64,000 nucleotides of DNA from Hoplostethus atlanticus (Eukaryota > Chordata > Actinopteri > Trachichthyiformes > Trachichthyidae), in NCBI GenBank assembly GCA_034670405.1, contig JAXDDX010000125.1, forward strand, positions 310,001-374,000, read 5' to 3'. Under the pieces are notes generated by a model that saw nothing but the letters and a program-made list of their open reading frames with translations, had not been told where the DNA came from and ran no database searches. Shown here one piece after another: positions 2 through 41,232 of this stretch. The position numbers and the translations under genes are program-made. Every line of letters begins with the position of its first letter. Within the stretch, counting starts at the first letter, position 1.

Positions 2-2056
2 AAGGCAGGCCGCTTGCTAGCTCACCAGTTGAAATGCAAATCATCCTCTCGTATGATCTCTATGATTCGCAATACGTTGCATGAATTAACAATTGACCCA
101 TTTGAAATGAATGATACATTTATACAATACTATACAAATCTATATGCACATCAGAATTCCCAGTTAGCAACTTAAACATGTTATCCTTTCTGGTAACACT
201 TTATATTAAGGTCCTTGTAATAAGTGTTAGTTAATAGGTAATAAGGCCCTTATAAGGCCTTATAAGATGCTTATTAACATGATTATGTGTTAATAAGACT
301 TTACAAGTGTTAATAATAGCATTATAAACATGTTTATTGTTAGATTATAAGACATTTATGAGCACTTATAAGAAACTTGTAAACAGTTTGTAGACAGCTT
401 AAGAACATTAATAAAAGCCCTATGGGTTTCTTATAAATGTTTATAATTGCAAACAAACACATTTAATATGTCCTTGTTAAACCTTTACTAAGGTTTTTTG
501 TTGCTATATTAAGGCTAATAAATCATGTCCTCTCAATCCGCTTTTGTTCGCCTTAGCCATAGAACCCCTTTCTATTGAGTTGAAAATGTCACAGTCCATA
601 CGTGGAATTCATAAGATGGGTATTGAATATAGAGTTTCTTTGTACGCAGATGACCTACTGTTATACATTGCAGATCCAGTGTCTTGCGTTCCTGATATTG
701 TGAGAATGCTAGGTGAATTTGGAAGTTTCTCTGGTTATAAATTACATTTTTCTAAAAGTGAATGTTTCCCCATTAACAATCTAGCTCTGCAGATCCCAGA
801 CAAAGATTTACCTTTCCGACTGTCCAAATCTGGCTTTAAATATCTAGGAATCAATATTACCCGTGCCTTTTCTGATCTCTATGATGAGAATTTTAAACCC
901 CTAATCAGCAAATTAAAGTCTGACTTTCAAAGGTAAAAACCCTAGGGTTCGCAGAGAACTCCTAGAGAGACCTAGGACACAAGGTGGCTTGGCACTCCCC
1001 AATTTTAGGAATTATTATTGGGCTGCTAACTTGCAAAACATTATATATTGGTTTCAATCCCCAGAAACTGAATGGTGAGGCAAGATCCTGCATGTCAACA
1101 TCCCTTTCTGCTCTAGTCACAGCAAAATTACCTTTTCCAGCATCACAACACACCTCATCCCCCGTGGTAAATTTCACTCTCAAAGTATGGGCACAATTCA
1201 GAAAGAAATTAAAACTTACAGACTTCTCTATTCAAAGCCCTATCTAATCACCTCTTCCTTGCGTCTAAATTGGATCATACTTTTACACAGTGGCAAAGAG
1301 TTGGTCTCAACAATTGTAATGATTTTTATATAGATGGTGTATTTGCAAGTTTCAATACCCTCTCTAAAAAATTTTAACTTAAACAATCAGATCTATTCCG
1401 ATACTTTTAAGTCTGTCATTTTGTCCAAACCTTTAGTCCAACCTTTTCCACCTTACTGCCAGCCTCTGGACTGGACAGCATTTTACGAATCCCTGTACGA
1501 CGAAAAGGCAAAATTTCAAATATATTGAATATAATAATCTCCCTTCAAAAAGGGTCACTAGATAAGATCAGAATGGAATGGACTGAAGAACTTGGGATAC
1601 AAATATCTGACTTGGTCTGGGACTGCTCACAGAGTAGAGTCAATGGAACAACCTCCCGTTGTCACAATACTAAAGCAGACATGGCACATATGTTTTGGTT
1701 CAATGTTGAGAGACTTCTGGTCATCCATTTGTAATATTTTGAATGCAGCATTCGATACGAATGTAAAGCCTAGCGCAGAATTGGCCATTTTTGGGGTTTT
1801 AGTAAATGAGCTCCTATTACCAAGCTATAAGAAAGAAGCTTTTGCATTCGCTTCCCTTTTGGCTCATAGAAGAATACTTTTATATTGGAAATCTCCTGAA
1901 CCACCACACACATCACTTTGGCTTAGCGACCTGGTACTTTTCCTGAAATTAGAAAAAATAAAATACTTCATTAGAGGATCAACTAAAACATTTATGAAAA
2001 CTTGGAACCCCTTCATCTTATACTTTGAAGGACTCAAAACCCTCCCCTCAGATTAA
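2..2056 (+). mobile_element. L1-like LINE, ORF2 3' part, degraded
   Basis: A 5'-truncated non-LTR retrotransposon of the fish L1/Swimmer-like type. Positions 2-172 encode KAGRLLAHQLKCKSSSRMIS and ...FIQYYTNLYAHQNSQLAT, the linker between endonuclease and reverse transcriptase. After an insertion and loss of sequence, coding resumes near 526 with CPLNPLLFALAIEPL and YADDLLLYIADP (RT catalytic YADD). The C-terminal region continues to SWPFIL-type wording and a stop at 2056. Frames change at about 936, 984-1250 and 1530-1600, and stops interrupt it, so it is dead. It is 3' of the mapped ryr2 exons and in the opposite orientation. Confidence 0.85.
173..525. repeat. TTA-rich interspersed repeat inserted in the LINE
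   Basis: An AT-rich segment that separates two coding pieces of the LINE. It starts near GTAACACTTTATATTAAGG, a motif common at the ends of fish non-autonomous DNA elements, and contains repeated TTATAAG and TTAATAAG words. No coding capacity. The opposite end lacks a clear inverted copy, so the element is truncated or the LINE lost sequence with it. Family assignment is uncertain. Confidence 0.5.
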
Positions 2057-6794: not shown

Positions 6795-7553
6795 CTGAAA
6801 AGCACACACAAACACAAACACAAACACACACACACTCCAAGGTGAGTCCAGGTGACAAAGATACAATAGTGGCAATAACAAGCAATGACCAAACTGATGG
6901 ACCTCTTAATTATCTCTCTTTTGCCCATTCTTCTCCTATCTGTCTCAATTCAGTTAGCTTGAACAAGTCCATTCTCTTCTCTGCCCATTCTCCTCTGACC
7001 ACTCTCATTAACAAGGTGTTTTTGAACACAGAACTGCTGCTCACCGGATGTTTTTTGTTTATCGCAGGAGCTGCCCTCCTGGTATTTACCCAGGAGCAAC
7101 CACAAGTGGCACCAACAATCATATCACGGTCAATGTCGTTTAGATCACGCATCTTGCCATTCTCATGTTTGGTCGAATAAAAAACTAAACCACTTCACCA
7201 TGTCTGCATGCTTTATATATTGAGTTGCAGCTTCATGATTTGCTGTTTGGAGGAGCAGGCTATTTGAGTTAACAAGCACGAGTAACTAACTAGTGGCCGG
7301 TAAGTGTACACTCTTTATAAGCATACATACGGAAACACACTTTCACAAACACACAATGTTCAAACTCCCAAAAAAACAAAAACAAAAACAATCCTACACA
7401 TAGACCTCCATACTGATGACACAATTGTGTTTCTCTATTTGTTTGCTTGTTTTATTTTTTGCTTGCTTGCTTTCTTATTATCTATGGTAGTGGCAATGAT
7501 GATATGGCAATGATAAACTTCTGTACCCTCAGTGTATATTTAAATGAACTTAC
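6795..7553. other. w29-w30 intron, simple repeats only
   Basis: The intron holds a CA-rich tract at 6812-6834, poly-A/T patches near 7370-7400 and 7440-7480, and no recognisable element. Open stretches on both strands here lack similarity to anything I know. Confidence 0.5.
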
Positions 7554-7650
7554 AGCCAGATCCTCTATGAGCTTATCTTCAAAGTAATGTTCCTCTGCCT
7601 CGATCCAGGACTTCTCATAGCCCTGCAGAAACAAGTTGACAGCCCGGTGC
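7554..7650 (-). CDS. ryr2: ryr2 exon w29
   Basis: 97 bp, acceptor AACCAG, donor GTAAGT. It encodes (R)HRAVNLFLQGYEKSWIEAE then EHYFEDKLIEDLA. LPRHRAVNLFLQGYEKSWIETEEHYFEDKLIEDLAK is the mammalian RYR2 sequence as recalled, so only one residue differs in the exon. Confidence 0.96.
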
Positions 7651-7732
7651 CTGGTTGGGGGGAGATATCGGTGGAAAATCAGTCTTTTTTTTTAAATATT
7701 TTTTTACAAAATATAGTAACAAAGTGTATATA

Positions 7733-7760
7733 TGTGTGTGTGTGTGTGTGCGTGTGCATG
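7733..7760. repeat. (GT)n microsatellite beside the w28 donor
   Basis: A GT run on the plus strand, CA on the ryr2 sense strand, starting about 30 nt beyond the 5' splice site of w28. CA repeats near donors are known binding sites for hnRNP L; a role here is inference. Confidence 0.85.
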
Positions 7761-7791
7761 TGCATGTTTGTTGGTGTGTCACTTCATATAC

Positions 7792-7904
7792 CTGGGCAGG
7801 TTATATAGCGGTGCCATCCTGAAGCAGGCCACCACCGCTCTCTTCCTCTGTTTGGACAGCAGTTTGTGCCAGACAGCCTTCTTACTGCGCTGAGGATGCT
7901 CAAC
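7792..7904 (-). CDS. ryr2: ryr2 exon w28 (calmodulin-binding helix)
   Basis: 113 bp, acceptor TTTCAG, donor GTATAT. It encodes [37 protein letters not shown] and two bases of Arg. [20 protein letters not shown] is the calmodulin-binding segment known from RYR1 (about 3614-3643) and RYR2 (about 3583-3603), with aromatic/aliphatic anchors and basic residues all retained. It begins the central domain that couples cytosolic sensing to the pore. A sense-strand CA repeat follows the donor (plus strand GT, 7733-7760). Confidence 0.97.
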
Positions 7905-8937
7905 CTGAAAACACATATCACACAACTCAGTGTAACCCATGTGAAATATAGGGCTACCAAAACCCAATATGTCATTTAGAAGTGTAGTTGCATGTTGTTC
8001 CCACAAGGGGCAAGCACTGTTTGCGCATCTAAAGGGTAGAGAGCGCTCATTTCATTTAATATCTTCCTGTAAACGTGCTGCAAATCCACTAAACACATAA
8101 TCTGAGCTGTGAACGTGAGGGAGGCAGTTTCTGTTTCTTCTTATATGTGTTTGAGACTCCGATTGTTTTTTTGAACTACCAGATAGGATTTGGAGGATTT
8201 CGTGATGGCAAGCCGAGCCCAGTGAGACTGTGGACGGTCGTGGAAGTGGTGTGGCCAACCGTAGGATCTGTCCATGGAAGACGTCTGACTAGCTCGATTC
8301 GTTCATACAGATACCAGATAAGAACACGTACACACATGCACGGATAAGGAACTGAACACTTGGATCTCAAACTCCTTAATTTAAAGGAGCATTCGTTGAC
8401 CTTTTCAACCTGGAAAAGACTTATTCTTTGTTTCTTTGTTATTTTAAAGAGCTCTATTTTTTTTTTCTTTACATACAAATCACAGCGCTGCATATGTTGT
8501 ATTGTTGCTGTAAGGCAATAAAATTGTCAGCTGTTCAACTTAACACCAACTCCTCTCGTGAGTTATTCAAGGCATACTACTCCCTAAACCTAGGTAGATG
8601 TTAGTGTCCCTATTACTACCTTTGGTTAGGACCAGGGGCGCTACATCAGTATAGAGGGCTTTCGGATGACGTAACACACCCTCTGGTGGCCATATTGGAG
8701 GTGCTCAGCTCTTAGCTCAGCTGTTAACAGCCAATTGCATTTCCAAGCTCACGATTTGGCCATCTTACCAGAAAGGGTTCATTTCTGTCTGTTTTTGACT
8801 GGGAACTGATCATTTCTTCACTGATGCATCTGTTTAATTTTGTTTAGATAATGTCTGCTTGTTAGCTAGCTGATCATAGTATCTGGTCAGCTAACTATCA
8901 CTATCTTGTTTCCACATCCGATCTACACACTAGCCAA
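7905..8937. other. w27-w28 intron, left part, nothing recognised
   Basis: Intron sequence before the nested Tc1/Gmr1 insertion. There is a T-rich patch at 8450-8470. I see no coding similarity. Confidence 0.45.
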
Positions 8938-8979
8938 TGTACAGTCATGCTTGAAAGTTTGCGTGAGTTTCTACTATGG
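8938..8979. mobile_element. Tc1 terminal repeat, split by the Gmr1 insertion (copy B, left)
   Basis: ACAGTCATGCTTGAAAGTTT is the terminal repeat of the Tc1 family also seen at 56250-57024. The internal part of the same copy resumes at 16717, right after the Gmr1 element. The reading across the two flanks (ending TATGG and continuing AATCATTATTTAATC) lines up with the other copy, where the corresponding region is continuous. Confidence 0.7.
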
Positions 8980-9397
8980 TGTTAGGGAGTGTAAGCCGAG
9001 AGACTTTGCTCAACCCTCCAAACAAATGGCACAGTCACAAATAGCAGTTGTAGTGCACAATAATGCGCATGCGTGAGGCGGGAAATGGCACAATATAGCC
9101 AGCCCGGACATGGCGGCTCGCTTTAGGACCCAGCGGCCGCCACCTGACTACACACAGGAGAAGAGGAGAATGAGAATGAGGAGAAGACAGCAAAATGATT
9201 CTGATCACGGTAGTTGTAATATTAAAAAATAAACGATGGAGTGATTATACTGGTACCTGTATCATTAATGTGGGGAAATGGGAAAATGTACCGGTTAGAT
9301 TGCATGCTACAAAAGCGGGACTGTTTGTATGCGAGTGTGTATAATGGCGTGCCTCTACCCAGTGCTGCCCACCACCAGTGACAGCTTCTCTGTCACA
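8980..9397 (-). repeat. Gmr1 element, 3' LTR (left)
   Basis: Begins TGTTAGGGAGTG and ends CTTCTCTGTCACA on the plus strand. About 418 bp, roughly half the length of the right LTR; the shared parts are nearly identical. Flanked outside by TATGG. Confidence 0.9.
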
Positions 9398-9888
9398 TTA
9401 CCATCCTCTTCTCCTGAGGCAACGACGTTAGGCAGCCGAGATAGGTAATCCGCTGTCACTTTCTCCTTCCCTGCCTTATGCCGTACCTGGAACTTGAAGG
9501 GCTGGAGTTCCAGATACCAGCGGGTCACTCTGGAGTTGCGATCCTTCATGGTCTCAATCCAGGTCAAGGCTCTGTGGTCGGTGTCGAGGTCAAACTCCCT
9601 ACCAAGGAGGTAGTACCTCAGGCTGTCTAGTGCCCACTTGATGGCCAGACACTCCTTCTCGATGGTGGAGTACCTGGTTTCCCGAGGCAGGAGTTTTCGA
9701 CTCAGGTACAAAACTGAACGCTCTTCCCCTGGGTCTCCCTGAGCCAGCACCGCCCCAATGCCCACCCCAGAGGCATCCACTTGGACCAGAAATTTTCGCT
9801 CAAAGTCCGGACTCTGAAGGACTGGAGAAGAGCACAGGTGGGATTTCAGGGCCTGAAAGGCAACTTCACATTCCTGTGTCCACTTCAC
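9398..9888 (-). pseudogene. Gmr1 RNase H
   Basis: Minus strand, last coding part before the left LTR: VDASGVGIGAVLAQ, YSTIEKECLAIKWALDSLRY, FDLDTDHRALTWI and KVTADYLSRLP. Catalytic Asp and Glu positions of the gypsy RNase H are visible. Confidence 0.9.
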
Positions 9889-10115
9889 TGGGTTGCTGGC
9901 GAGCTTTCCAGTGAGACTGGTCAGAGGTGCGGCCAGAGTGGAGAATTGAGGGATGAACCTTTCGATACCACCCTACCAGCCCAAGGAAGGACCTCACCTG
10001 GGTCTTTGTGCAGGGTCAGGGGCTGTTGAGGATGGCCTCTATCTTGTCCACCTGAGGCCGAACCTCCCCTCATCCTAGATGATAGCCCAGGTACTTTGTC
10101 TCCTGTTTTGCCCAC

Positions 10116-10740
10116 TCACATTTCTGCAGATTCAGGGTGAGTCCAGCGGCGTTGATCTTTCCCAGAACTCTGGTTCTGCTCCAGATGCTCCTCCCATGTT
10201 CGGCTGTAGATCACCACGTCATCCAAGTAGGCCGCACTACAGTCCTCACAACCTTGGAGCACCCGGTCCATAAGTCTCTGGAACGTTGCTGGCGCACCAT
10301 GGAGTCCAAAGGGCATGGTGGTGAATTGGAAGAGCCCAAGTGGAGTCCTGAAGGCAGTGAGCGGCTTTGACTGCTCGTCCAGGGGAACCTGCCAGTACCC
10401 CTTACAGAGGTCCAGGGTGGTGATGAAATTGGCTCTTCCAATTCTCTCAAGGAGGTCATCTATCCGGGGCATCGGGTAGGCATCGAAGAAGGAGATGGCA
10501 TTCAACTTCCGGAAGTCAATGCAGACCCGAAGGGACACATCTTTCTTGGGTACAATGACGATGGGGCTGCTCCATTCACTCTTTGAATGCTCAATGACCC
10601 CCAGCTCTAGCATGGTCCGGATCTCATCCTTTAGAGCCCCAATCAGTCGTTCAGGCACTCTGTAGCAGCGCTGGCGCACTGGATACTGGTCAGGCTTAAT
10701 CCGAATGGAATGCTTCAGGGTGGTGGTCCGTCCTGGCTTC
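10116..10740 (-). pseudogene. Gmr1 reverse transcriptase
   Basis: Minus strand RT fingers and palm: GVIEHSKSEWSSPIVIVPKK, RVCIDFRKLNAISFFDAYPM, FITTLDLCKGYWQVPL, FQFTTMPFGLHGAPATFQRL and the catalytic AAYLDDVVIYS. The Ty3/gypsy character of the RT is clear. Confidence 0.92.
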
Positions 10741-10899
10741 TGCTGGAACAAGCGTGGGAAGTTCCCGAATACTACCTGCAGCTCCACTGGCCAATTACCG
10801 TCCAGATGAGAGAGGTCCACATTGCCAGGCTTCTTCCAGGCCTCCACTACGCCCTCCGAGTCATCTTCCTCTGCCAACTGACGGACTAGAAGAGATGTA

Positions 10900-12195
10900 T
10901 TCGTCGTGGCACCTTCTCTCTCTTTCCAAGCTTTCAGGAGATTGACATGATATCTCTGCTTCTTCTTCTGCTTCTCTGGATGTAGCACCTCGTAGGTGGT
11001 TGGCCCCATCTTCCGCACCACCATGAAGGGACCCTGCCACTTTGCCAGGAGCTTGCTAGAACAGGATGGTAGGAGAAGCAAGACTTTATCACCTGGTTTG
11101 AACTCCCGCTGGCGAGCCTGCTTGTCATACCATGTCTTCTGGGCACTTTGGGCTTCCTGCATGTTGAGCTTAGCTTGCTCTTTGGTACTGCTCCAGCCGA
11201 TCCCTCGTCTGAAGGACATAGTGGACAATCCCTTTCTCCTCAGAAGCTGCAGTTGACCCCTCCCAGCTCCGTTTCACCAGGTCCAGTGGTCCTTGCACTG
11301 GCCAGCCATACAGGAGTTCAAAGGGTGAAAAGCCTGTGGACGCCTGAGGCACCTCCCTGTAAGCGAACAGGAGAAATGGTAACCACTTGTCCCAGTCTTT
11401 CCCGGTGTCTGAGACAAACTTCTTGAGCATCCTCTTGAGAGTCTGATTAAATCTCTCCACCAGGCCATCTGTCTCAGGATGGTAAGGAGTCGTCTTGATG
11501 GCAGTAATCCCCAGTTCTTTGTGCAGCTGCCCCATCAGACGGGAGGTGAAGTTGGTTCCCTGGTCGGTCAGGATCTCCTCCGGGATGCCTACACGGGAAA
11601 ACAACTGGACAAGGGCACTGATCACTTTTGGGGTGGTGATGGAACGCAGAGGAAAAGCTTCAGGGAAGCGAGTGGCATAATCACACACGACAAGGATGTA
11701 CTGATACCCTGAACTGCACTTCTCCAATGGCCCCACGATGTCCATCGCAATCCGCTGGAACGGGCTAGTGATGACCGGCATTGGTTGCAAGGGGGCTCGG
11801 TTGGACCTGCGGACAGCACTGGTTTTCTGGCACTCTGAACATGTGTTGCAGTATGCTTGCACATCAGTGTACATGGAGGGCCAAAAAAAACGATAGCCTA
11901 ACCTAAGGTAGGTCTTATGATGCCCTAAATGTCCTCCCCACGGGATTGTGTGTGCAAGATGGAGAACAAGTGGTCTGCAACTACTGGGTACCACCAACTT
12001 TCTATCTGCCTCTTCCCCCTGGTACAGTATGTTGTCATGTATGGAAAACACAGAACCCCCTGAAACTGCAGTGTGGTTTTCCCCAGACAAGGTCTTGTCA
12101 TATAGTGGTTTGATAGACGGGCCAGACTGTTGCAGGGTTACAATATCATCAGGGACCTCCCATTTAACCTTTAACCCAGACATCTCATCAGGCAA
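10900..12195 (-). pseudogene. Gmr1 integrase, upstream of RT
   Basis: Minus strand. HHCC zinc finger (HLAHTIPWGGHLGHHKTY ... CNTCSECQ), then the DDE core: AMDIVGPL, LTDQGTNF, and Glu in TDGLVERFNQTLK, ending TGFSPFELLYGWPVQGPLDL. A basic SH3-like tail (KPGDKVLLLLP ... WQGPFMVVRKMGPTTYEVLH) follows at about 10900-11130. Position before RT defines the Gmr1 layout. Confidence 0.92.
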
Positions 12196-12356
12196 AGTTA
12201 CAGGTACGGGGGAACCTACATGTTTTTCAAACCGCCGTTGTCGGCGTGACTTTCTGGGCCCTTTGGTTCCACCCTCGCACTATCACACAAGTCAGGCAGT
12301 GGTTGTAACCCAGTCTTGGCCTTGGTTTGAGCACGGGTTATGACAAAATATGACAT

Positions 12357-12735
12357 TTACATATCCGACATTGCATTGACAGGTACATGGGGCTGATCCT
12401 TGCCTCTACCAAGTAGCTCATACAGCACCGGCAAATCCCTCCCCAAGAGCATATCCACCGGTAGGTTCTCTACTACACCCACAGTCAACAGGTACTTCTG
12501 CTTGTCCACCTCCACAGTGAGCTCTGCCCGAGGCTCAGGCTTACAGTCACCATGCACACACTGAACTATGGTCTGTTTGCTATAATCTAGTGCACAAGTG
12601 GGGACATGACTACTATTTATTAAGGTCATGGAGCTACCAGAATCTAGGAGAGCTGTAACTGGTTTACCATTAACTTTCACAGGTACCCACATAGATTCTC
12701 CCCCCCCTCTCCTGGTCCTCACCATCATCATAGTC
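12357..12735 (-). pseudogene. Gmr1 aspartic protease
   Basis: Minus strand, VNGKPVTALLDSGSSMTLIN: the LLDSGSS motif is the catalytic Asp of retroviral-type proteases. It follows gag and precedes integrase. Confidence 0.85.
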
Positions 12736-13490
12736 AATGCAGTCCCCTTCTTTTGGCACATAACATAACCCCGACAGTTTTGGTCTTTTAAGTGGGCATA
12801 GCGACGCTTTGTGCCCTGGCTGCTGGCAGTGGTAGCAGACAAAGCCTCTGTGGCCTGTCTGAGCTGTACCCCCTTTCTCACCCCCTCCATAATTACCTTC
12901 AGTGTCCCTGAGGTTACTGGGGTTCTTGGGGTCTCGAGGCGGTGGGGCTGGTCGGAAGGGCGCCCCCTTGCGGGCATTGAGGTACTGCAAGGCGAGTCTT
13001 GCCGCAGTGAGTCCGTCGTTTGGTTCGTGCTCCCGAACCCAGGTTCTTGTGTCCAGAGGAAGCACTCGCAGCAGCTGCTCCAAGATGACCGTCTCTCCAA
13101 TCTCCTCTTTCGTCCGTTGCTCTGGTCTAATCCAATGCCGGTAGAGACCCTTGAGGCGATGATATGTCTCCGTTGGTGACTCCCCGGCTGGTGTTGTACT
13201 GGACCGGAAGCGTAGACGGTAGGTCTCAGGTGAAATGTCAAACTTGAACAGCAGCGCCTCCTTCAGCTCCGGGTATATATTGGACCCCTCCTCATCCATG
13301 GCAGTATAGGCCTCCAGGGCTTTGCCAGTCAACAGGGGAGCCAGCCGGCAGGCCCACTCCTCCTCTGGCCACTGCCAAGTCCTTGCCATGTGCTCGAAAT
13401 GCAGGAGATAGTTCTCAATATCCTCACCTTGCTGGTAGACAGGCATCTTTGGCTCCTTTCGCAGGTGTAGTGTATGCAGGAGACATCGCC
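12670..13490 (-). pseudogene. Gmr1 gag, C-terminal part with zinc knuckle
   Basis: Minus-strand gag capsid-like region (DIENYLLHFEHMARTWQWPE, LLTGKALEAYTAM) followed by one CCHC knuckle CYHCQQPGHKASLC. The capsid wording resembles the SCAN-related gag of fish gypsy elements. Confidence 0.85.
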
Positions 13491-13499
13491 CCCCCCCCC

Positions 13500-15325
13500 C
13501 TCTTCGGCCCACAGCAACACCCAAAGACTAACACATTCCTCTCCCAGGGTCTTCCTATGAGGTCAAGACCCCTGCTGTGCTCCCAGGAACCCAAGGAACC
13601 CCCTTTGCAGCAAAAGGTGGATTTCCCCCATAAAGCTGCCAAAAAGTAACACTTTGCAGGTTCGACTAGCCCGCTCTGGTGCCATTAGGAGATGGGACCG
13701 ATGATAAGGGCCGGGGAAATGTACCTAATCTGCCTTCCAAGGGAGACACAGAATAAGAGAACAAAGAAACTCTGGAATGTATTGCAAAAATGTGCTTTCT
13801 GTATATGTTTATTAGATTTAAACTTCACATCCTGTGGCAGATGATGTACCCTACTCCCCAATGTAGTATCTTGGTTATTCAAGGGCACACAGAATGTGTT
13901 ATCAGGACTTTTGGTTTACTCGCCAGTATTTTGTGGTAAGACAGTGATGTTTGGTGTCATTCAAATCCATTTGTTGTTAGGTGATTAAATATGTCACTTG
14001 CATCCCCAAAAGGATCAAGAAAAATGATGTTTTCCAAACCTGAGCTGGAAATGCAGTTTTAGGGGATGGTGATCACCGGTCATCAAGTTGTAAATCTGAT
14101 GCATGCAAATGAGGGAAACACCTACCACTCCTGACATACCATAAAGCCCTTGACCCTTGGGCTCAGCTCAGAACACACACGAAATCTCACAAACTCGAAC
14201 GAACAAAGGAGGACAACTCCTGCAACGGGCGGACGGGCAAAAACTCAGGCGGAAAGACAACATCAAGGAACATCAAGAAACTCAACTCAACCGTCCTGCA
14301 GCCCGTCCCGCAGCCCGTCCTGTAACTAAGTTTGAACCTGGCTCAAAGCTCTTCTCTCAGCTCAAGTACCAGACCAGCTCCAGAGTGAATCTTGCCAAGA
14401 CGGCCGATTGAGTTCACTCAACCTGATCCAGAAGACTACGAAACCACGTCAGAAGCCAGCCGTTACTCTACTCCGCTTCCTGAACGATGTGAGTCAACAC
14501 ATCGCCCTATCCCTCTATATCCACTGAGGTGAACTGTTGGCACGACGACTCCCACGAACAATGGCCCCCGGACCGCACTCCACAACGGCCCTCCTGACGT
14601 CGACTGGTCCAGACCAACACGTGCGTGTGTTTACCTGTCCACTGCGACTGCGCGACGGTTACCACAGAGACGAGGACGCCGCTGACACCCTGCAAACCAG
14701 ACGGTAACCAACTTTCTTGTTGATGCACGGGTGATGCAAAGGCAGTGTTGAACTGTGAAAGTGAGGTTAGAATACTCTCTCTCTCTCCACTATTCTCTGT
14801 CCTTCTGTCCCAAGTCTCCCGGAAACTGTCAGCTGTCCTCCAAGCCATCTTTTGCTGTTGCCACATTGCCGCAATTAGACGTATTACAACTCAGGTCGTT
14901 TTGTCGGTGCAACCTTCCCTGCCATCTTTGATCCCAATATCATTGGCCACTCTTATTTGATATATCCCCTGCCACTGTTTAACTTCCTACCTTATTTGAT
15001 ACATCCTCTGCCACTGTTTATCTTGTTTGTCAGTTTTATTGCCATTATCTGTTTTCATTTAGTATACATTTATTCATTTTATTGGTGTTTTATTTACATA
15101 GTTAATAAAATCTTTGCATTTCTAAAGAACTGGCTTTTGTGTCATTGATATATCCTGGACATGAAGGTAGAAAATCACTGAAATCTAGAGCTCACTTCTT
15201 CTGATTATTAGACTGATATCATTATAAAGAGACTACTCCAGTGTAAACTGGTGGTGCCCCGAAAGTGTTAATTAATAAGATATTAATTACTAAGAATAAT
15301 TTCAATAATTGTCAATCTTCAGAAT
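13500..15325. mobile_element. LTR-like insertion inside the Gmr1 gag
   Basis: About 1.8 kb of unrelated sequence separates the two gag parts. It contains a TATA-like CATAAAGCCC (14139-14150), a polyadenylation-like TTAATAAAATC (15100-15111), and GTGGTGCCCCGAAAGTG (15250-15270), which resembles a primer-binding site. This suggests an LTR plus leader of another retroelement in plus orientation. No gag-pol is present, exact ends are not resolved, and age is unknown. Confidence 0.4.
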
Positions 15326-15886
15326 TTACCAAATAGTCTCATCGTTCATAACGAAGCACAACACGCTACACAGGAACGGCTGCCGGTTGGCCCCTTGGGA
15401 CTGGTCAGCTGGATGGACAGGGAAGGCCCTCTGACCTTGGGTACTGCTTGGGCTGTTGAACAGTGACGTTCGTCTGGCTCCTGGTGTTGGCAGTTCCAGC
15501 CTTGGGATTCCACCGCCTAGACTGGAGCACCCTCTGGTGGACTGCGCGGCTGCTTCAGGATGGTTGGTAGTTTGCATTGTGGTCCGCAGGCCCCGGATTT
15601 CCTCCCGAAGAGCATCATCTCTTCGCTGCTGAACAGAGAGAAAGTCCTGGAATAAGCTCACCAATGAGGGTTCTACAGCTGGAGACAAGGCTTCACGCTG
15701 AGAGCTGTACTTGGGCCTAGCTCCCCGCACCTCAAAGTCCTGCCCAAACTCTTCCTCCTCTGATGTCACCGCAGTTTCCCAGTCATCTACTTCACTCTTT
15801 GCACTGGAGGGTTTTGTTTGGGACCGAAGCCCGGTCCTCTTTCGAAAGGGACGTTTTGCGACTGGCCATCCCACCGCTGCCACCAA
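15326..15886 (-). pseudogene. Gmr1 gag, N-terminal part
   Basis: Coding-like minus-strand stretch directly inside the 5' LTR. It has a charged EDDALREEIRGLRT-type helix (QRRDDALREEIRGLR) and a Pro/Ser-rich tail, as in gag N-termini of fish gypsy elements. It ends at the foreign insertion. Confidence 0.6.
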
Positions 15887-15887
15887 A

Positions 15888-16716
15888 TGTTAGGGAGTGT
15901 AAGCCGAGAGACTTTGCTCAACCCTCCAAACAAATGGCACAGTCACAAATAGCAGTTGTAGTGCACGGTGATTTATTGGTGCTCCCAAAATCCAAAACAA
16001 TGTGCAAAAGTGAGTGTCCAAAAAGGGAAAACTATTTACATATATACAGCCACAAAAATCCAACATGAAAATCCAACATCCACAATGACCACAGGAGCAG
16101 CAATAACGTTACCTTCCTGGGCACAACCCGACACCTTCTCCCTGGAGAGGGACTCATATAAGTACTCCTGGCCCCACCCCCAGAACATACCAACTATCAA
16201 AATAAATACTCCCTCCATTACAGTAGTTATGTATGTATATATATAATGTATATTATTAATCACAATATTATATATATGTAATGACACACTCCACAAATAA
16301 AAGGCCTGCATAAACATCAAAATACAATAACTCTCCACAACCGATAAACATTGGCGCATTCCAAAATAATGCGCATGCGTGAGGCGGGAAATGGCACAAT
16401 ATAGCCAGCCCGGACATGGCGGCTCGCTTTAGGACCCAGCGGCCGCCACCTGACTACACACAGGAGAAGAGGAGAATGAGAATGAGGAGAAGACAGCAAA
16501 ACGATTCTGATCACGGCAGTTGTAATATTGAAAAATAAACGATGGAGTGATTATACTGGTACCTGTATCATTAATGTGGGGAAATGGGAAAATGTACCGG
16601 TTAGATTGTATTGCGTGCACTTGCTACAAAATCGGGACTGTTTGTGTATGCGAGTGTGTATAATGGCGTGCCTCTACCCAGTGCTGCCCACTGCCAGTGA
16701 CAGCTTCTCTGTCACA
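15888..16716 (-). repeat. Gmr1 element, 5' LTR (right)
   Basis: About 829 bp with the same ends as the left LTR. On the minus strand it carries a TATA-like ACTTATATGAG motif (complement near 16150) and an AATAAA signal (complement near 15970), as expected for a U3-R-U5 unit. Flanked outside by TATGG. Confidence 0.9.
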
Positions 16717-17160
16717 TATGGAATCATTATTTAATCAAAACTAGCTGAACTGAAATAAAGTATCTATATTTACCAATTTCATATGCTTTTAGAAGAAATT
16801 GTGCATGTAATACATGTAGAAAATAGTGCAGGTGGAAAAATAAGTGAACCTCCTCTTGCATTAGTTAAATCAAATAGGTAAGAATAGGTAGAATCAGGTG
16901 GTTAATAATTGGGTATGAAGTTCAAAGAGTCAAAGGTCAAATACAGGTGAGAAACCTGGTCAGTTTGGTGTTACCCATGCAGGTGAAAGAAAAACACTAT
17001 GCTCAAATCCAAGCAGACCCCAGAGGGCCTCAGGATGTGAGGCTCCATCAGTCCACAGTGAGACAAATAATATACACATGGAGAGCATTTGACATTGCAG
17101 CAAATCTGCCTAGAAGTCCTTCTAAAATATCACCAAGAGTCAAGAAAAACACCTAGAAAA
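16717..17160 (+). mobile_element. Tc1 copy B, right part
   Basis: Continuation of the Tc1 copy broken by the Gmr1 element. It matches the copy at 56250-57024 around CATTATTTAATCAAA, the terminal-repeat-like GTGCAGGTGGAAAAATAAG, and encodes NLVSLVLPMQVKEKHYAQIQ and ANLPRSPSKISPRVKK, the Tc1 helix-turn-helix. Truncated near 17160 and inactive. Confidence 0.7.
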
Positions 17161-23084: not shown

Positions 23085-24845
23085 TGTTCAGTATTGAATT
23101 GAATTGAAACCTTTATTTATTCAGGGAAGACAATTGAGAGCGAGCTCTCTTTTACAATGCCGCCCTGATTACAATGTAACACATACAAAATAGAACTATG
23201 TTACAACAAAACAAGATAAAATCACAAAACAAAGTCACAAGATCCAAGAATAAAAGACAAGACTATGAAAAACATGTACTATGAGAAACATGTACAGTCG
23301 ACATGGAGCACACCTTCTACCAGAACCTTGAACCTCTCCAGAGAGACAAGTTGGTCCAGCTTTAGGGAGTCCTGCAGCCTGTTCCACATCTCAGGTGCAT
23401 AAAAGCTAAAGGCAGACTTTCCTGCATTGGTGTTACACCGTGGTACATTCAGCCTTATATGTGATTGTAGTCTAGTATGGTGTTCTATGTCTCTAAAATT
23501 CAAAAGTGAGGACAGGTATAGTGGCAGCTTACCAGTCAGTGCTTTAAAAATAAATAAAAGAGAATGTTGTTCTCTTCAAGTGGCAAGGGACGGCCATCCA
23601 ACTTTGCTATACAGAACACAGTGATGGGTGAGAAACCCATCACCAGTAATAAAACGCAGAGCACTATGATATACTGCATCAAGAGGCTTCAGAGAGGTGG
23701 GCGAGGCATGCATAAACAGAACATCACCATAGTCAAAGACAGATAATATTGTTGATTGCACAATGATTTTTTTGCTAATAGTGGAAAAACAGGACATATT
23801 TCTATAAAGAAATCCTATCTTTCCCCTTAGCTTTTTGGTGAGGTGTTCCACATGGGTCTGGAATGATAGTCCACTATCTAGCCAAATACCCAAATATTTA
23901 TAAGAGGCAACAATTTCTATTTGCGCCCCCTGGAGAGTGTGAATACCTATACTGGCATCAGTCCCGCGAGACCTTGAAAACAACATACATTTAGTCTTTT
24001 CAGAATTTAAGACAAGCTTATGGCCAATAAGGGACAACTGGAAAGCATCAAAAGCAGACTGCAGATTTGCAGCGGCCGTTCTAAGAGTGGATCCTGCACT
24101 GTATAGGACTGTATCGTCCGCATAATAATGGACAGAACAGTGTGGGAGGGGGGGCATACTGTTATTAATATAAATAGTAAATAAAAATGGGCCCAAAATG
24201 GACCCCTGTGGGACACCCTTACCAATTACAAGAGAGTTTGATTTAAACCCTCCCGGTAAGATAATTTGAGAACCAATTGACAGAACCAATTGACAGATAG
24301 CTCGTCTAGACCTATTGAGGATAGTTTATTTAATAAAATGCTGTGATCCACCGTATCAAATGCCTTTGACAGGTTGATAAAAAGTGCAGCACAGTGCTGG
24401 CGACTATCAAGACTGCTGACTATGCCGTTCACCACGAGTGTTGTGGCTGTTACCGTACTATGTCCCGGTCTAAACCCTGATTGTTGTGGCTGAAGAATAT
24501 TGAATGCCTCCAAGAAAGCCCGTAACTGCGAATTAACTAACGATTCGAGAATCTTGGCTAGACAACATAGTTTTGAAATTGGACGGTAGTTATCTAGTTC
24601 AGTAGGATTACCACCTTTAAGCAGCGGTATAACCTGTGCAGCTTTCCACACGGCAGGGATTTCACCAGAAACAAACGTCAGATTGAACAAGTGGGCAAGT
24701 GGGGATGCTATCACATGAGCACTAAGGCGGAGAAGATAAGGATCAAGATCATCCTCACCTTTAGATTTCTTAGTGCTTAATTGTGAAAGAGCATTAAAAA
24801 CTTCAATGTGGTTTACTGGTCTAAGAGTAAAGCTGCCGCAGAACC
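23085..24845 (-). mobile_element. L2/CR1-like LINE, 5'-truncated, degraded
   Basis: Minus-strand non-LTR retrotransposon. Upstream part (24226-24845): LRPVNHIEVFNALSQL, NYRPISKLCCLAKILE, LQPQQSGFRPGHSTVTA and LSKAFDTVDHSILL. Downstream part (23576-24289): GKGVPQGSILGPFLFTIYIN, the catalytic YYADDTVLYS, and SYKYLGIWLDSGLSFQTHVE. C-terminal part (23279-23503): GKSAFSFYAPEMWNRLQDSL. The 3' end is close to TTGAATTGAATTG at 23091-23104, short repeats typical of the L2/CR1 group. A frame change near 24240-24290 and another near 23500-23580 disable it. It lies in the w25-w26 intron in gene orientation. Confidence 0.85.
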
Positions 24846-25250
24846 GTATTGAGTTGGTATGTGCTGGTCATGTGTAAATAAGAAATCACTAGGCTATCAC
24901 TGGATCATTGAACAGAAGGGAGGAGGGGATAGGTTTATGTAATTTAATCTAATTTTGTAGATATGTTATGAAATTGCATTTTTGCGAGCAAGTTCGCTGA
25001 CTATTACAATTGCATTTGATTACTTGCTTTGAGTTGCTTTACTTGCTTTGCTTTTTTTTTTAACTACACTGATGAGAAATCCCAGGTTTGAATGCCAGCT
25101 TAGTGCATCACACCACATGATATGAATATCAAATGGCAACCCAAATAATATATTGCAAACACTGATTAAGTTTACTACCATAATTTACTACCTTAGCCAA
25201 TTGATGAGAAAATGATTGCTAATCTACTATCCAACTATGAAATGTTCTAC
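24846..25250. other. Intron sequence, nothing recognised
   Basis: Left over part of the w25-w26 intron, T-rich, no recognisable element. Confidence 0.4.
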
Positions 25251-25789: not shown

Positions 25790-26235
25790 GGATGACGTCA
25801 GCACATACAGGTGGGGGCTGTGCAGGAGTCCCCGAGACAGACGGGGCTCACGGTAAACCCAAAAAAGTGTGGTTGGATGGAGGGTGGTACAGTATCTGGG
25901 GTACCACTTGGGCGGTGGGTAGGTTTGTCCTCAGATAGATAAGACAGCAGCGGTTGCAGCCTGCCCGAGGCCCAAGACAAAAAAGGTGAGGGGATTCTTG
26001 GGGCTGGCCGGTTATTAACGCAGCTTCGTCTCTGCCTTCTCGAACCTGATTAGTTCCAGGACCAACCTGACCAGAGAGAGTGCTCCGGTCCAGTGGACAG
26101 AGCAGTACCAGCAGGCATTTGAGAGGGTAAAAAGGTTCTCTGTGGGTAGCCGATACTGTTTACATCTGACCTATTTACACCTGACTTATCTCTCCCTTTT
26201 TGCCTCCAGACTGATGCATCACAATAAAAACTGTG
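25790..26235 (+). mobile_element. Ty3/gypsy pol fossil (RT fragment)
   Basis: Plus-strand remains of gypsy reverse transcriptase: YLGYHLGGG-type wording, PQIDKTAAVAACPRPKTKK, RGFLGLAGY and VQWTEQYQQAFERVK. Isolated, no LTRs seen, broken by multiple interruptions, so it is old. It lies in the w24-w25 intron, opposite to ryr2. Confidence 0.7.
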
Positions 26236-34520: not shown

Positions 34521-34559
34521 GGCCTTTGAAAATTTTAAATGACGCAACAGAGCCATCAG

Positions 34560-34870
34560 TCAGTGGCGTCCAGCAAAGATCACAGCAAGAACACGCCATA
34601 TAATGGTCAAGGAGGTGACAAAGAACCATATGGTAACAGCTAAGGATCTACAGGCATCTCTTGAACCTTCTAACATCTGTGTCCATGAACCCACAATAAG
34701 AAAAATACTAAACAACAGTGGTGTTCATGGGAGGATACCAAGGAGGAAACCACTGCCCTCCACAAAAAAACATTGCTGCATGTTTCAAGTTTGCCAAAGA
34801 CCACCTGGATGTTCCACAAAGCTACTGGAACATGTTCTGTGGACAGATGAGACAAAAATGTATCCACACA
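34560..34870 (+). mobile_element. Tc1 transposase fragment (copy D)
   Basis: Plus strand encodes VTAKDLQASLE, STVRKIL-like PTIRKILNNSGVHGRIPRRK and LEHVLWTDETKMY, the catalytic centre of a Tc1 transposase. Ends are missing and frames change; inactive. Confidence 0.75.
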
Positions 34871-35393
34871 CACATAGGCACACCTTTATACTTATTGTAG
34901 GCTTTGGCACAACCTGGTTGTGTCAGACGCAACAGAGGCAGTGTCTCGGGGGTCACTGTTCAAGCCATAGCAAGAGAGGCAAGACGAGAATGGTGGCAGA
35001 TGGAAAACTGTTTGGACAAGGACTGGTAAATACATTGTGACATGACCAGGGGACAGGTAGTGGATGGTTGCTAAATCCCCATCCAGGTGCAGCATGAGGA
35101 GCTGCCTCACAAAATGGCTAGGTTGGCTAAAACTACAGCTGCCTAGGTTGGCTAAAACTACAGCTACTCATAGGTTCCAGAGACCACCTATGAGGACACC
35201 GGCTGCCATTGCACAGCAGCTCCTTGACACAGCCAACTCACTGTCATTAAAGATTCTCTCATCAAGCTGGTGGAAAGCAAGCACATTCCTAGCTTTGTAT
35301 GCAACATTCCCATCACAACTCACTTTACAGTCTTGTGTTCCTTCTTACCACCGAGGAGCTGCTCTTGCCTGTACTGGGGACTACACTGCTGGG
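34871..35393. other. Intron sequence, nothing recognised
   Basis: Contains a short tandem repeat (TAGGTTGGCTAAAACTACAG twice, 35121-35163). A plus-strand open stretch at 35064-35396 (HRFQRPPMRTPAAIAQQLLD) is not recognised. Confidence 0.35.
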
Positions 35394-37395
35394 TAGAGAT
35401 GCACCTATGGACTCTTCGATGCACTCCCTCCCAGGAAACAGTGTCCCTCCCAGGCAGTAACGACTCGGTAGGTCCCGCTATGTAGTGAAGTTGATTTGAG
35501 GCTTGTTTTATCAAACGACAACTGGCGATTTCAATCAGAAAAACGTGACAATGTCATCGGCACTTTCCACGATACACGGTGTGTCAGGATGTTTGACAGC
35601 ATAATCTGACAGCTCCCATAAGGTTGTAATAGCGGGGGCGCTTATGTATGGAGGGTTAAATGTGACAATATTAAATAAATAAATAATTAAATAATTAACT
35701 AATTAAAAGGGGAAATATATAGATACATTAAATAAAAGGGGAAATATATGAATAATGAATTAATTAAAATGGGACATATAAGCTATTTGTTTATTTCCAC
35801 ATTTATTTAATTATTTTCCATATTTAATGATTTATTTCACTATTTATTTATTTCATGGTTGCTGGTCTGTGTGTGCACTGTGAAATGTAAATCTGTCAAC
35901 ATCGTCCATCAAAGCCTGTGGGAGTGCCTTGTGTCTGATTGGTTGATCAAGTTAAGTCGATTGCTTTGGCCTGCATCCTTCCTTGTTGCGTTATTTTTAT
36001 TACAAATAAATGGCGGATCCTACCCAAGAGGTCTCTCATGACCTAGTTAGAAATATGTTAGCATTAGCAGAGAACATAGAGTCTAATATTGCAAACCCTG
36101 ATTCAGTGGACAGGGTTTCTGTTGAATGTTAATGCTTGCTCAACGACTTGTGGAGTGGACTGTGTGGTGTGGTGTGGTGTGTTTCTCAGGGCCTCTTGGA
36201 TTAAATTGGCTGCCTCCCGCAAAAGTTCTGGACAGCTTTTCGACATTCTGATAAATGAGTTGTAACATTAAGTTGAAGGTCATAACTATTTCCTCAAGTA
36301 ACTGATGAAGTTCTTGGTGTTCTTCTTGGTCGTTGAGAAATGGTTGATAATCCAACTCATTGGCGCCTTACCGCCATCAAATGGACGAGAATGTGAAGCC
36401 ACACGGCTGACACCCATACATCGAGTAGCCTGCTATCAATTGATCTTGACTTACTGTGAGATCCGGCCCACAGGCTTTGATGGACGATGTTGACAGATTT
36501 ACATTTCACAGTGCACACACAGACCAGCAACCATGAAATAAATAAATCGTGAAATAAATAATTAAATATGGAAATAATTAAATAAATGTGGAAATGAACA
36601 ATTAAATAGCTTATATTTCCCATTTTAATGAATTAATTATTCATATATTTCCCCTTTTATTTAATGTATCTATATATTTCCCCTTTTAATTAATTAATTA
36701 TTTACTGATTTATTTATTTAATATTGTTACATTTAACCCTCCATACATAGGCGGTCCAGCCATTTTTAGGACTACGGGTATAAGAAAATTGAACTTCAAA
36801 AAACTACAAAAATGTCAACATTGCGTCCAACATTTTCCGGTTCCGGTTAATTGATGACAACTTGAAGTATATATAAAAACAAAGTTCAGAACTTGATTTT
36901 ATGTTTTTGATGCATTTTAAATGATTGGAAAATGACGGTGCTCTTGGGCTCTACACTGAAATATAGAATGCGCGCTCCCGGGCACTATGGGGTTTAGAGG
37001 GTTAATGTTCAAGTTCAAGTGCATTAGGCCTATACATATGTTGACAATAAAGGTGCCTTGTTATATTCTTCTGTTTCTATTACCTGCAACTCATTTTCAG
37101 TTGGATTTTATTTGTACAAAAAAGCTGAGAGAAGGTCCTGTAACCTGGTGCAGTTTTGGAGAATTTGGACAATTGAATTTTCCATTAAAGAAAAGTTACA
37201 AAAATGTTTGTGTATGCTGTCAATTATAGTATAGACAAGTTTTTCAGCTCTGACCTAGGGCGCCGCCATTGTTGCATTATTTGTGTTCGGTGGGCACAGA
37301 ACTTCCGGTTATAAACTACAAGGACGGCAGACACAGCTACACAAAACGCTGCTAACATCGCCGAGCTATCTTCACGCTACCTCAGTGCATCTCTA
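35394..37395. mobile_element. hAT element with 8-bp duplication CTGCTGGG
   Basis: The 2.0-kb element starts TAGAGATGCAC and ends GTGCATCTCTA, perfect 11-bp inverted ends, and is flanked on both sides by CTGCTGGG (35386-35393 and 37396-37403). An 8-bp duplication with such ends is the hallmark of hAT. No transposase is visible, so it is non-autonomous. A second inverted-repeat element (35643-36752) is nested in it. It lies in the w19-w20 intron. Confidence 0.85.
35643..36752. mobile_element. Nested element with about 240-bp inverted ends
   Basis: Left arm (TATGGAGGGTTAAATGTGAC ... through CAGTGCACACACAGACCAGC complement, to about 35910) and right arm (36485-36752) are inverted copies over at least 240 bp, AT-rich with TTAAATAA words. 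The centre has a short plus-strand frame at 36011-36133 starting MADPTQEVSHDLVRNMLALA and ending at a stop; function unknown. Superfamily unknown. Confidence 0.7.
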
Positions 37396-37639: not shown

Positions 37640-38395
37640 TTCCAGGTGGCTCAACATAACCCAATGGCTGGTCACCTGGGGTACAAAAAAAAAAATCCAA
37701 AAAAAATCAATGAATCGACTCATTGCCACCCTCATCCTCTTATGGATGTCCCCTTTGAAAGAATTCACATGGAACTCATTGGGGCATTAGACCAATGGAC
37801 TCATGAACACTCCGCAAACTCTATGGATTGTTGGGCATTCAGTCAATTCATACCAGCGTGTACCAGCCCCAGACCAACAATCTGGTAGAGGGGTTTGACT
37901 AAACACTGAAGACAATGAGTTAGTAAAAAAGAGGGATAGATGGCTGGATATCTGTTATTCGCAGTGCAGGAAATTTCCCATGTCTCCACAGGATTTTCTC
38001 TTTTTGAGCTGCTATTTGCCAGAAAATCTAATGCCCGGATCGGATTCATGGATTGGTTAGGCACAGCTCCTTTTTTCACAACACTGGATTTGACTACTGG
38101 CAGATTCCCCTGTCTCCAGAGGTCAGAGAAGGCCAAAATGTCCTTCCCCACTCCGTATGGGTTGAACCAATTCATGAAACTTCGGGCTGCTTGAGACCCC
38201 TGTTCTGCCTCAGGGGCTCACTACCAACCTGAAGAATTGTACAGTCGAACAGAGGGTACGGTTTCTGGGGTACCAGTTGGGCTGTGGGCAGATGAGGCCC
38301 CAGCTAGATAAGACTGGCTATTACAACCTGCCCTACCCCCAGACTAAAAAGGAGGTGAGGCGGTTCTCTGGGTTGGCAGGCTACTATAGATGCTC
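37640..38395 (+). mobile_element. Second Gmr1-like gypsy fossil (integrase then RT)
   Basis: Plus-strand remains of pol. Integrase wording comes first (NPMAGHLGY, HPLMDVPFERIHMELIGAL, YQPQTN, STGFSLFELLFA), followed by RT wording (FFTTLDLTTG, KAKMSFPTPYGLNQF, then GYQLGCGQMRPQLDKT and KKEVRRFSGLAGYYR). Integrase before RT again indicates the Gmr1 layout. Much is missing, no LTRs are seen, it has many breaks and is old. Confidence 0.7.
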
Positions 38396-40175: not shown

Positions 40176-41232
40176 CACACCTATCAGCCATAACATTAAA
40201 ACCACCTGCCTAATATTGTGTAGGTCCCCCTCGTGCCGCCAAAACAGCTCTGACCCGTCGAGGCATGGACTCCACAAGACCTCTGAAGGTGTCCTGTGGT
40301 ATCTGGCACCAAGACGTTAGCAGCAGATCCTTTAAGTCCTGTAAGTTGCAAAGTGGGGCCTCCATGGATCGGACTTGTTTTTCCAGCACATTCCACAGAT
40401 GCTCGATTGGATTGAGATGTGGGGAATTTACCATGAAGGGGTTTACTTGGTCTGCAACAATGTTTAGCTGGGTACATGTCAAAGTAACATCCACGTGAAT
40501 GCCAGGACCCAAGGTTTCCCAGCAGAACATTGCCCAGAGCATCACACTGCCTCCGCCGGCTTGCCTTCTTCCCATAGTGCATCCTGGTGCCATCTCTTCC
40601 CCAGGTAAACGACGCACACATACCCGGCCGTCCACGTGATATGTAAAAGAAAACGTGATTCATCAGACCAGGCCACCTTCTTCCAATGCTCCATGGTCCA
40701 GTTCTGACGCTCACGTGCCCATTGTAGGCGCTTTCGGCGCTGGACAGGGGTCAGCATGGGCACTCTGACCGGTCTGCGGCTATGCAGCCCCATACACAGC
40801 AAGCTGCGATGCACTGTGTGTTCTGACAGCTTTCTACCTCTTCTTTGGGATCGGACCACACGGGCTAGCCTTCGCTCCCCACGCACATCAATGAGCCTTG
40901 GGTGCCCATGACCCTGTCGCCGGTTCACCGGTTGTCCTTCCTTGGACCACTTTTGGTAGGTACTAACCACTGCATACCGGGAACACCCCACAAAACCTGC
41001 CGTTTTGGAGATGCTCTGACCCAGTCTTCTAGCCATCACAATTTGGCCCTTGTCAAAGTCGCTCAGATCCTTACGCTTGCCCATTTTTCCTGATTCCAAC
41101 ACATCAACTTCAAGAACTGACTGTTCACTTGCTTCCCAATATATCCCACCCCTTGACAGGTGCCATTGTAACGAGATTATCAATGTTATTCACTTCAACT
41201 GTCAGTGGATTTAATGTTGTGGCTGATCGGTG
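40176..41232 (-). mobile_element. Tc1/mariner transposon, nearly full length (copy F)
   Basis: Ends CACCTATCAGCCATAACATT and its inverted counterpart (complement near 41205-41232), in a TA-rich flank. The minus strand encodes [40 protein letters not shown], then [20 protein letters not shown] with the first catalytic Asp; after a frame change [19 protein letters not shown] and PHLNPIEHLWNVLEKQVRSM to RRVRAVLAARGG. The segment that normally carries QQDNAPCH with the second Asp is deleted, so it cannot be catalytic. Best preserved Tc1 in the window. Confidence 0.9.

Follow-up and report, generated by a model that had tools for sequence, protein, structure and literature searches.

Does a retrotransposon whose integrase precedes its reverse transcriptase (RT), while RT itself is of gypsy type, carry an inherited order of domains, or has its order been produced by damage at a single site? 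This question is raised by a locus of the fish Hoplostethus atlanticus, where one long terminal repeat (LTR) retrotransposon occupies positions 16716–8980 of the minus strand in a window of 64,000 nucleotides (assembly GCA_034670405.1, contig JAXDDX010000125.1, positions 310,001 to 374,000; positions below are those of this window). It is highly probable that the element is a defective copy of a Gmr1-type Ty3/gypsy LTR retrotransposon. Its LTRs start with TG and end with CA, and TATGG stands directly outside both of them; these borders, the coordinates of the element and the duplication, as given in an earlier note on this DNA, proved to be correct by sequence comparison.

Order and affinity of the coding domains

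Pfam profiles were applied to seven frames of the element, two of which (15326–15886 and 14507–14866) gave no match. On the minus strand they place the SCAN and CCHC domains of Gag, protease, the H2C2 domain of integrase, the integrase core, the integrase C-terminal module, RT and RNase H, in this order. No Pfam match was obtained in the stop-free frame 15371–15883 at the place of the gag N-terminal part. The same order was recovered with RT, RNase H and integrase proteins taken from three outside elements, and the arrangement gag, protease, integrase, RT, RNase H proposed in the earlier note agrees with the profiles and, as regards RT, RNase H and integrase, with the outside proteins. Since the integrase C-terminal module and RT are carried by one open frame of 370 amino acids (10116–11228), there is no break between them.

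For RT the nearest solved structure is that of Ty3 (E 9.9e-44), in line with the claim that this RT is clearly of gypsy type. Integrase is nearest to the foamy virus PFV (E 4.2e-34) and to Ty3 (E 2.4e-33), chain 7z0h_W, which we take to be Ty1 integrase, being matched only at E 1.3e-5. Based on these affinities the element can be considered Ty3/gypsy-like with a copia-like order.

The SCAN domain of the window Gag finds its nearest solved structure in the SCAN domain of zinc finger protein 24 (E 5.8e-16), and the same Gag gives a weak PNMA match under the cut-off. Gag-position frames of three other loci, L036, L044 and L046, match PNMA and not SCAN; that of L001 gave only a zinc knuckle under the cut-off, and that of L003 only DUF7041. 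According to the cited part of PMC3424704, the vertebrate SCAN domain was derived from Gag of a Gmr1-like element. The cited part of PMC4131045 reports SCAN exclusively from frog Gmr elements, more than 50% of which carry it, and that of PMC8672886 describes zebrafish gag genes carrying SCAN.

Recurrence of the order in the genome

The 633-Mb genome was searched with the junction protein (integrase end plus RT), the integrase core and Gag, and 111 of 1838, 118 of 2085 and 137 of 467 candidates, respectively, were scored. The junction protein gave 122 listed matches, 88 of which, including the window copy, cross the junction in one alignment; identity of the 87 others is 41–93%. Among 19 listed RT pieces that do not cross the junction, 11 have an integrase-end piece just upstream. 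The integrase core, for which 118 matches were listed, lies upstream within 1.5 kb and on the same strand in 75 of the 106 listed RT-bearing matches (median gap 16 nt, largest 596), none was scored for the other 31, and no match has it exclusively downstream. Two of the listed RT-bearing matches also have integrase within 3.5 kb downstream; both possess their own upstream integrase, and in one of them (C936) extra Gag and RT matches reveal a neighbouring element. Viewed from Gag, the integrase core is found 0.39–1.8 kb downstream on the same strand in 72 of 140 listed matches and upstream only in none, while for the remaining 68 the scored list holds no integrase core at a distance of up to 2.6 kb.

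Matches to the family LTR were registered near three integrase-first copies (C144, C128 and C283, the junction of the last consisting of two abutting pieces). In the relatives C10, C15 and C238 gag and pol matches are fused in long frames of 1,510 amino acids; at C10:7336929-7340258 a single such frame underlies the Gag, integrase and RT matches, and this frame is broken in the window copy. A breakpoint at 10553–11033 specific to the window copy, which a local rearrangement would predict, was not found among the own-genome junction matches. The contention that the element is not rearranged between integrase and RT is thereby upheld, as the junction recurs in other copies.

As controls, 20 loci were hand-picked from 150 listed integrase-core matches (best 150 of 1313; the window integrase is absent from the 150). 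Both RT and integrase were found in 18 of them, with RT upstream in all 18, and no RT match was obtained at L031 and L043. In the L039 control a second RT, close to a further integrase match of the list (C126:216418), lies 3.3 kb downstream of integrase. At L035 a second piece with RT and RNase H (7129–8186, minus strand) stands beside the standard-order element on the opposite strand; it has no integrase match and groups with the integrase-first copy L051 on the RT tree. Among genome contigs the RT core hit six gypsy-like ones in metagenome bins titled bacteria or archaea, probably eukaryotic contamination, and these served as outside controls. All three that have an integrase match show the order RT–RNase H–integrase, and no integrase match was found in the other three. 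No relative was detected in viral contigs with junction, integrase, RNase H or RT core queries, nor in genome contigs with the integrase query. At C120:465737-474940 and C1102:3003-7752 integrase matches follow each other every ~4.45 kb within long open frames, like tandemly repeated elements.

In the RT tree built from 11 integrase-first rows and 14 others, the integrase-first rows together with one unlabelled fragment fall on one side of a branch supported at 94/99; two rows of this tree (L004 and L005) were labelled standard, though their contigs show no integrase match. When only 12 order-verified controls were used, leaving out L004, L005 and the short fragment L035_RTb, the integrase-first group was retained at 88/91. 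A single change of order was kept in 86% of 200 bootstrap RT trees, and an equally low number was reached by 0 of 500 label shuffles. The integrase tree grouped three integrase-first rows against 13 others at 96/97, with L001 flagged as a long branch; in an earlier integrase tree, without the other integrase-first rows, it was the window integrase that was flagged in this way. Integrase-first copies form one group on both RT and integrase trees, and a grouping of their RTs with a standard-order gypsy lineage, named by the earlier note as a possible refutation, was not found with the rows used here. In the RT trees the window, the outside contigs and own-genome elements such as L035, L044 and L046 share one side of a 100/100 branch, the other side being taken by a second own-genome standard-order set, which is presumably retrovirus-like.

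Some circumstances weigh against this reading. The own-genome counts are lower bounds biased to close relatives, and they refer to matches, not to elements, some of which give two or three. Tree rows were chosen by the authors: the window and ten junction pieces of the 122 listed for RT, and two integrase pieces of the 118 listed. The trees were midpoint-rooted for drawing only, and their rows exclude named Gmr1, Mag, CsRn1 and copia sequences. Support in the RT tree decreases from 94/99 to 88/91 with order-verified rows, and 14% of the 200 bootstraps need more than one change. The link between SCAN and the order opposes one integrase-first Gag having SCAN to five other gag-position frames having none.

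Anatomy and damage of the window copy

Features of the element and of its immediate flanks in the 64,000-nt window
Feature	Position	Strand	Evidence or remark
Target site duplication TATGG, left copy	8975..8979	.	Flank comparison
3′ LTR, 418 nt	8980..9397	-	Lacks ~398 nt of family LTR (also 11 and 2 nt)
RNase H domain	9496..9882	-	PF17917, E 3.6e-36; PF17919, E 3.5e-35
Reverse transcriptase domain	10176..10553	-	PF00078, E 2.4e-24
Integrase C-terminal module	10932..11033	-	PF22938, E 1.1e-9; SH3_Tf2-1 under its cut-off
Integrase core	11476..11766	-	PF00665, E 9.4e-13
Integrase H2C2 zinc-binding domain	11818..11991	-	PF17921, E 2.3e-19
Aspartic (retroviral) protease	12432..12686	-	PF00077, E 1.2e-10
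Gag CCHC zinc knuckle	12793..12840	-	PF00098, E 1.7e-4
Gag SCAN domain	12967..13230	-	PF02023, E 8.3e-24
Nested putative solo LTR of another repeat family, foreign to the element, interrupts gag	13466..15370	-	TGTAG...CTACA, CCTG on each side
Stop-free frame at the expected place of the gag N-terminal part	15371..15883	-	Putative gag, by position
Primer binding site, 18 nt, complementary to tRNA-Leu 3′ end plus CCA	15868..15885	-	
5′ LTR, 829 nt, complete family form with AATAAA	15888..16716	-	
Target site duplication TATGG, right copy	16717..16721	.	Flank comparison

The two LTRs differ at 7 of 418 aligned positions (Kimura two-parameter distance 0.017). Two bases separate the primer site TGGTGGCAGCGGTGGGAT from the inner end of the 5′ LTR, and the site can pair with the tRNA-Leu 3′ end including CCA. 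It is known that CCA is added to tRNA. The pattern for this tRNA-Leu end was found at 14 places of the genome, against 0 for the reversed control, and one of the 14 (a 96-base piece) was recognized as tRNA-Leu by ARAGORN. Another one, C39:2928318, precedes a Gag match by about 0.5 kb, so that it may represent a primer site instead of a tRNA gene.

The window copy is defective, because its pol frames are broken: no single open frame holds protease, integrase, the integrase end plus RT, and RNase H, which are set apart from each other by stops and frame changes. The part absent from the 3′ LTR and present in the 5′ LTR includes AATAAA. An insertion into the 5′ LTR was considered as another cause of this inequality. 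With the 829-nt LTR as a query (best 40 of 58 candidates scored), 57 genome matches were listed; ten other places cover 1–829 and two more extend from 4 or 20 to 829, with 73–94% identity. Since the long form recurs elsewhere, the insertion is ruled out, and it is the 3′ LTR that was deleted.

The 1,905-nt repeat inside gag is most likely a nested solo LTR from a different family of elements. Its genome search (best 40 of 693 candidates scored) listed 42 matches, 33 of them, including the window copy, covering 1–1905 completely; the other 32 are 92–96% identical. One of these 32 (C125:306620-308545) is situated 1.5 kb ahead of the window. The right end is CTACA or near-identical in the 12 first-ranked copies examined. 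The four bases on the two sides are the same in the window copy (CCTG) as well as in five of the 11 others (L017, L018, L019, L021 and L026, the left end of L021 having been shifted by a partial second match). They disagree in the remaining six, three of which (L020, L024 and L025) have a common sequence past the right end, as expected if the internal part of a complete element followed there. The idea of one integration event instead of a patchwork is valid for the element itself and does not extend to the nested LTR and the deletions, which came later. The nested repeat, the loss in the 3′ LTR and the broken pol frames are absent from the earlier note.

Other repeats of the window are of different kinds. 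Three weak matches to gypsy RT or integrase (E 1.65e-5, 0.008 and 0.009) fall at 25881–26027 and 37813–38390, possibly old gypsy remnants, and segments 25886–26017 and 38255–38386 are 75% alike. RVT_1 fragments at 23576–24867 (minus) and 481–936 (plus) are probably of LINE type. Remnants of Tc1/mariner-type transposases (HTH_Tnp_Tc3_2) occupy 34543–35040 (plus) and 40542–41189 (minus), and an inverted repeat of about 297 nt with 93% identity (35628–35922 and 36467–36764) perhaps represents the ends of a DNA transposon.

Relation to Gmr1 and meaning of the order

In the cited parts of the literature integrase lies upstream of RT in Gmr1, and the family is present in an annelid (PMC8220671); this order is described as Ty1/copia-like (PMC2774666). 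Crustacean Gmr1-like elements, the first in protostomes, are reported along with bream Saugg1 (PMC3587641). The statement that Gmr1 is known from deuterostomes, made in the earlier note, is therefore out of date. Gmr1-4 are described in Tetraodontiformes, with a fused gag-pol frame tabulated for fish Gmr1-4 (PMC11117352, the part cited). The clade represented by cod Gmr1, Tetraodontiformes Gmr1-4 and bream Saugg1 combines, like the window element, integrase upstream of RT, gypsy-type RT and SCAN-type Gag, and fusion of gag and pol matches in long frames is repeated by the relatives in this genome. Unlike these elements, the window copy is defective, and its family LTR has 829 nt against 337–518 nt in four Tetraodontiformes Gmr elements, as given in the same part of PMC11117352. 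The Ty3/gypsy-like L036, L044 and L046 of the same genome share the Pfam families of RT, RNase H and integrase with the window; they differ from it, as does L035, in the order RT–RNase H–integrase, and the first three also in Gag. Assignment to the Gmr1 clade, drawn by the earlier note from the reversed order and gypsy RT, fits the recurrence of the order, both trees (whose rows do not include the named clades) and the SCAN-type Gag.

The damaged state of the locus, with its nested LTR, LTR deletion and broken frames, might suggest that the order results from a local rearrangement or from a chimera of two standard elements. The open frame shared by the integrase C-terminal module and RT, the 87 other listed matches crossing the junction and the family LTR matches near three integrase-first copies make this extremely improbable. 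The order by itself is identical to that of Ty1/copia elements, where integrase normally precedes RT (PMC8220671, the part cited), but it is extremely improbable that the element belongs there: among solved structures the best matches of its RT and integrase are Ty3 and foamy-virus chains, and its RT sides with gypsy-like standard-order RTs on the 100/100 branch, which contains no copia rows and is not itself a copia test. It is also very unlikely that a separate gypsy lineage gained this order independently of Gmr1. Comparison with Gmr1 was made by published description, not by named sequence, which leaves some room for such a lineage; the order, a Gag of SCAN type and the long frames in which gag and pol of the relatives are fused agree with the Gmr1-like descriptions in the cited parts of PMC4131045, PMC11117352 and PMC8220671.

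For a Gmr1-type family one can assume that transcription would start from the 5′ LTR, and that Gag, with its SCAN-like capsid C-terminal domain, would build particles. Reverse transcription would be primed by tRNA-Leu at the site beside the 5′ LTR. One polyprotein would be cut into protease, integrase, RT and RNase H, integrase being ahead of RT, and integrase would insert the new copy with a 5-bp duplication. Most simply, the swapped order may go back to a single ancient rearrangement within Ty3/gypsy that was passed on to the integrase-first copies. A further and unlikely proposal is that after a single origin of the order within Ty3/gypsy RT and integrase were inherited together, the integrase C-terminal module thus passing directly into RT within one frame, and that, if processing between the two were incomplete, an integrase–RT fusion could replace two enzymes.

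This kind of element is already described, and the present one adds a member to a clade already known as unusual; it is not a new kind. Its SCAN-type Gag links it to the source of the vertebrate SCAN domain proposed in the cited part of PMC3424704. In this genome, with its standard-order elements as controls, the deviation from the Ty3/gypsy order of domains described in publications proves to be real and occurs in large numbers.

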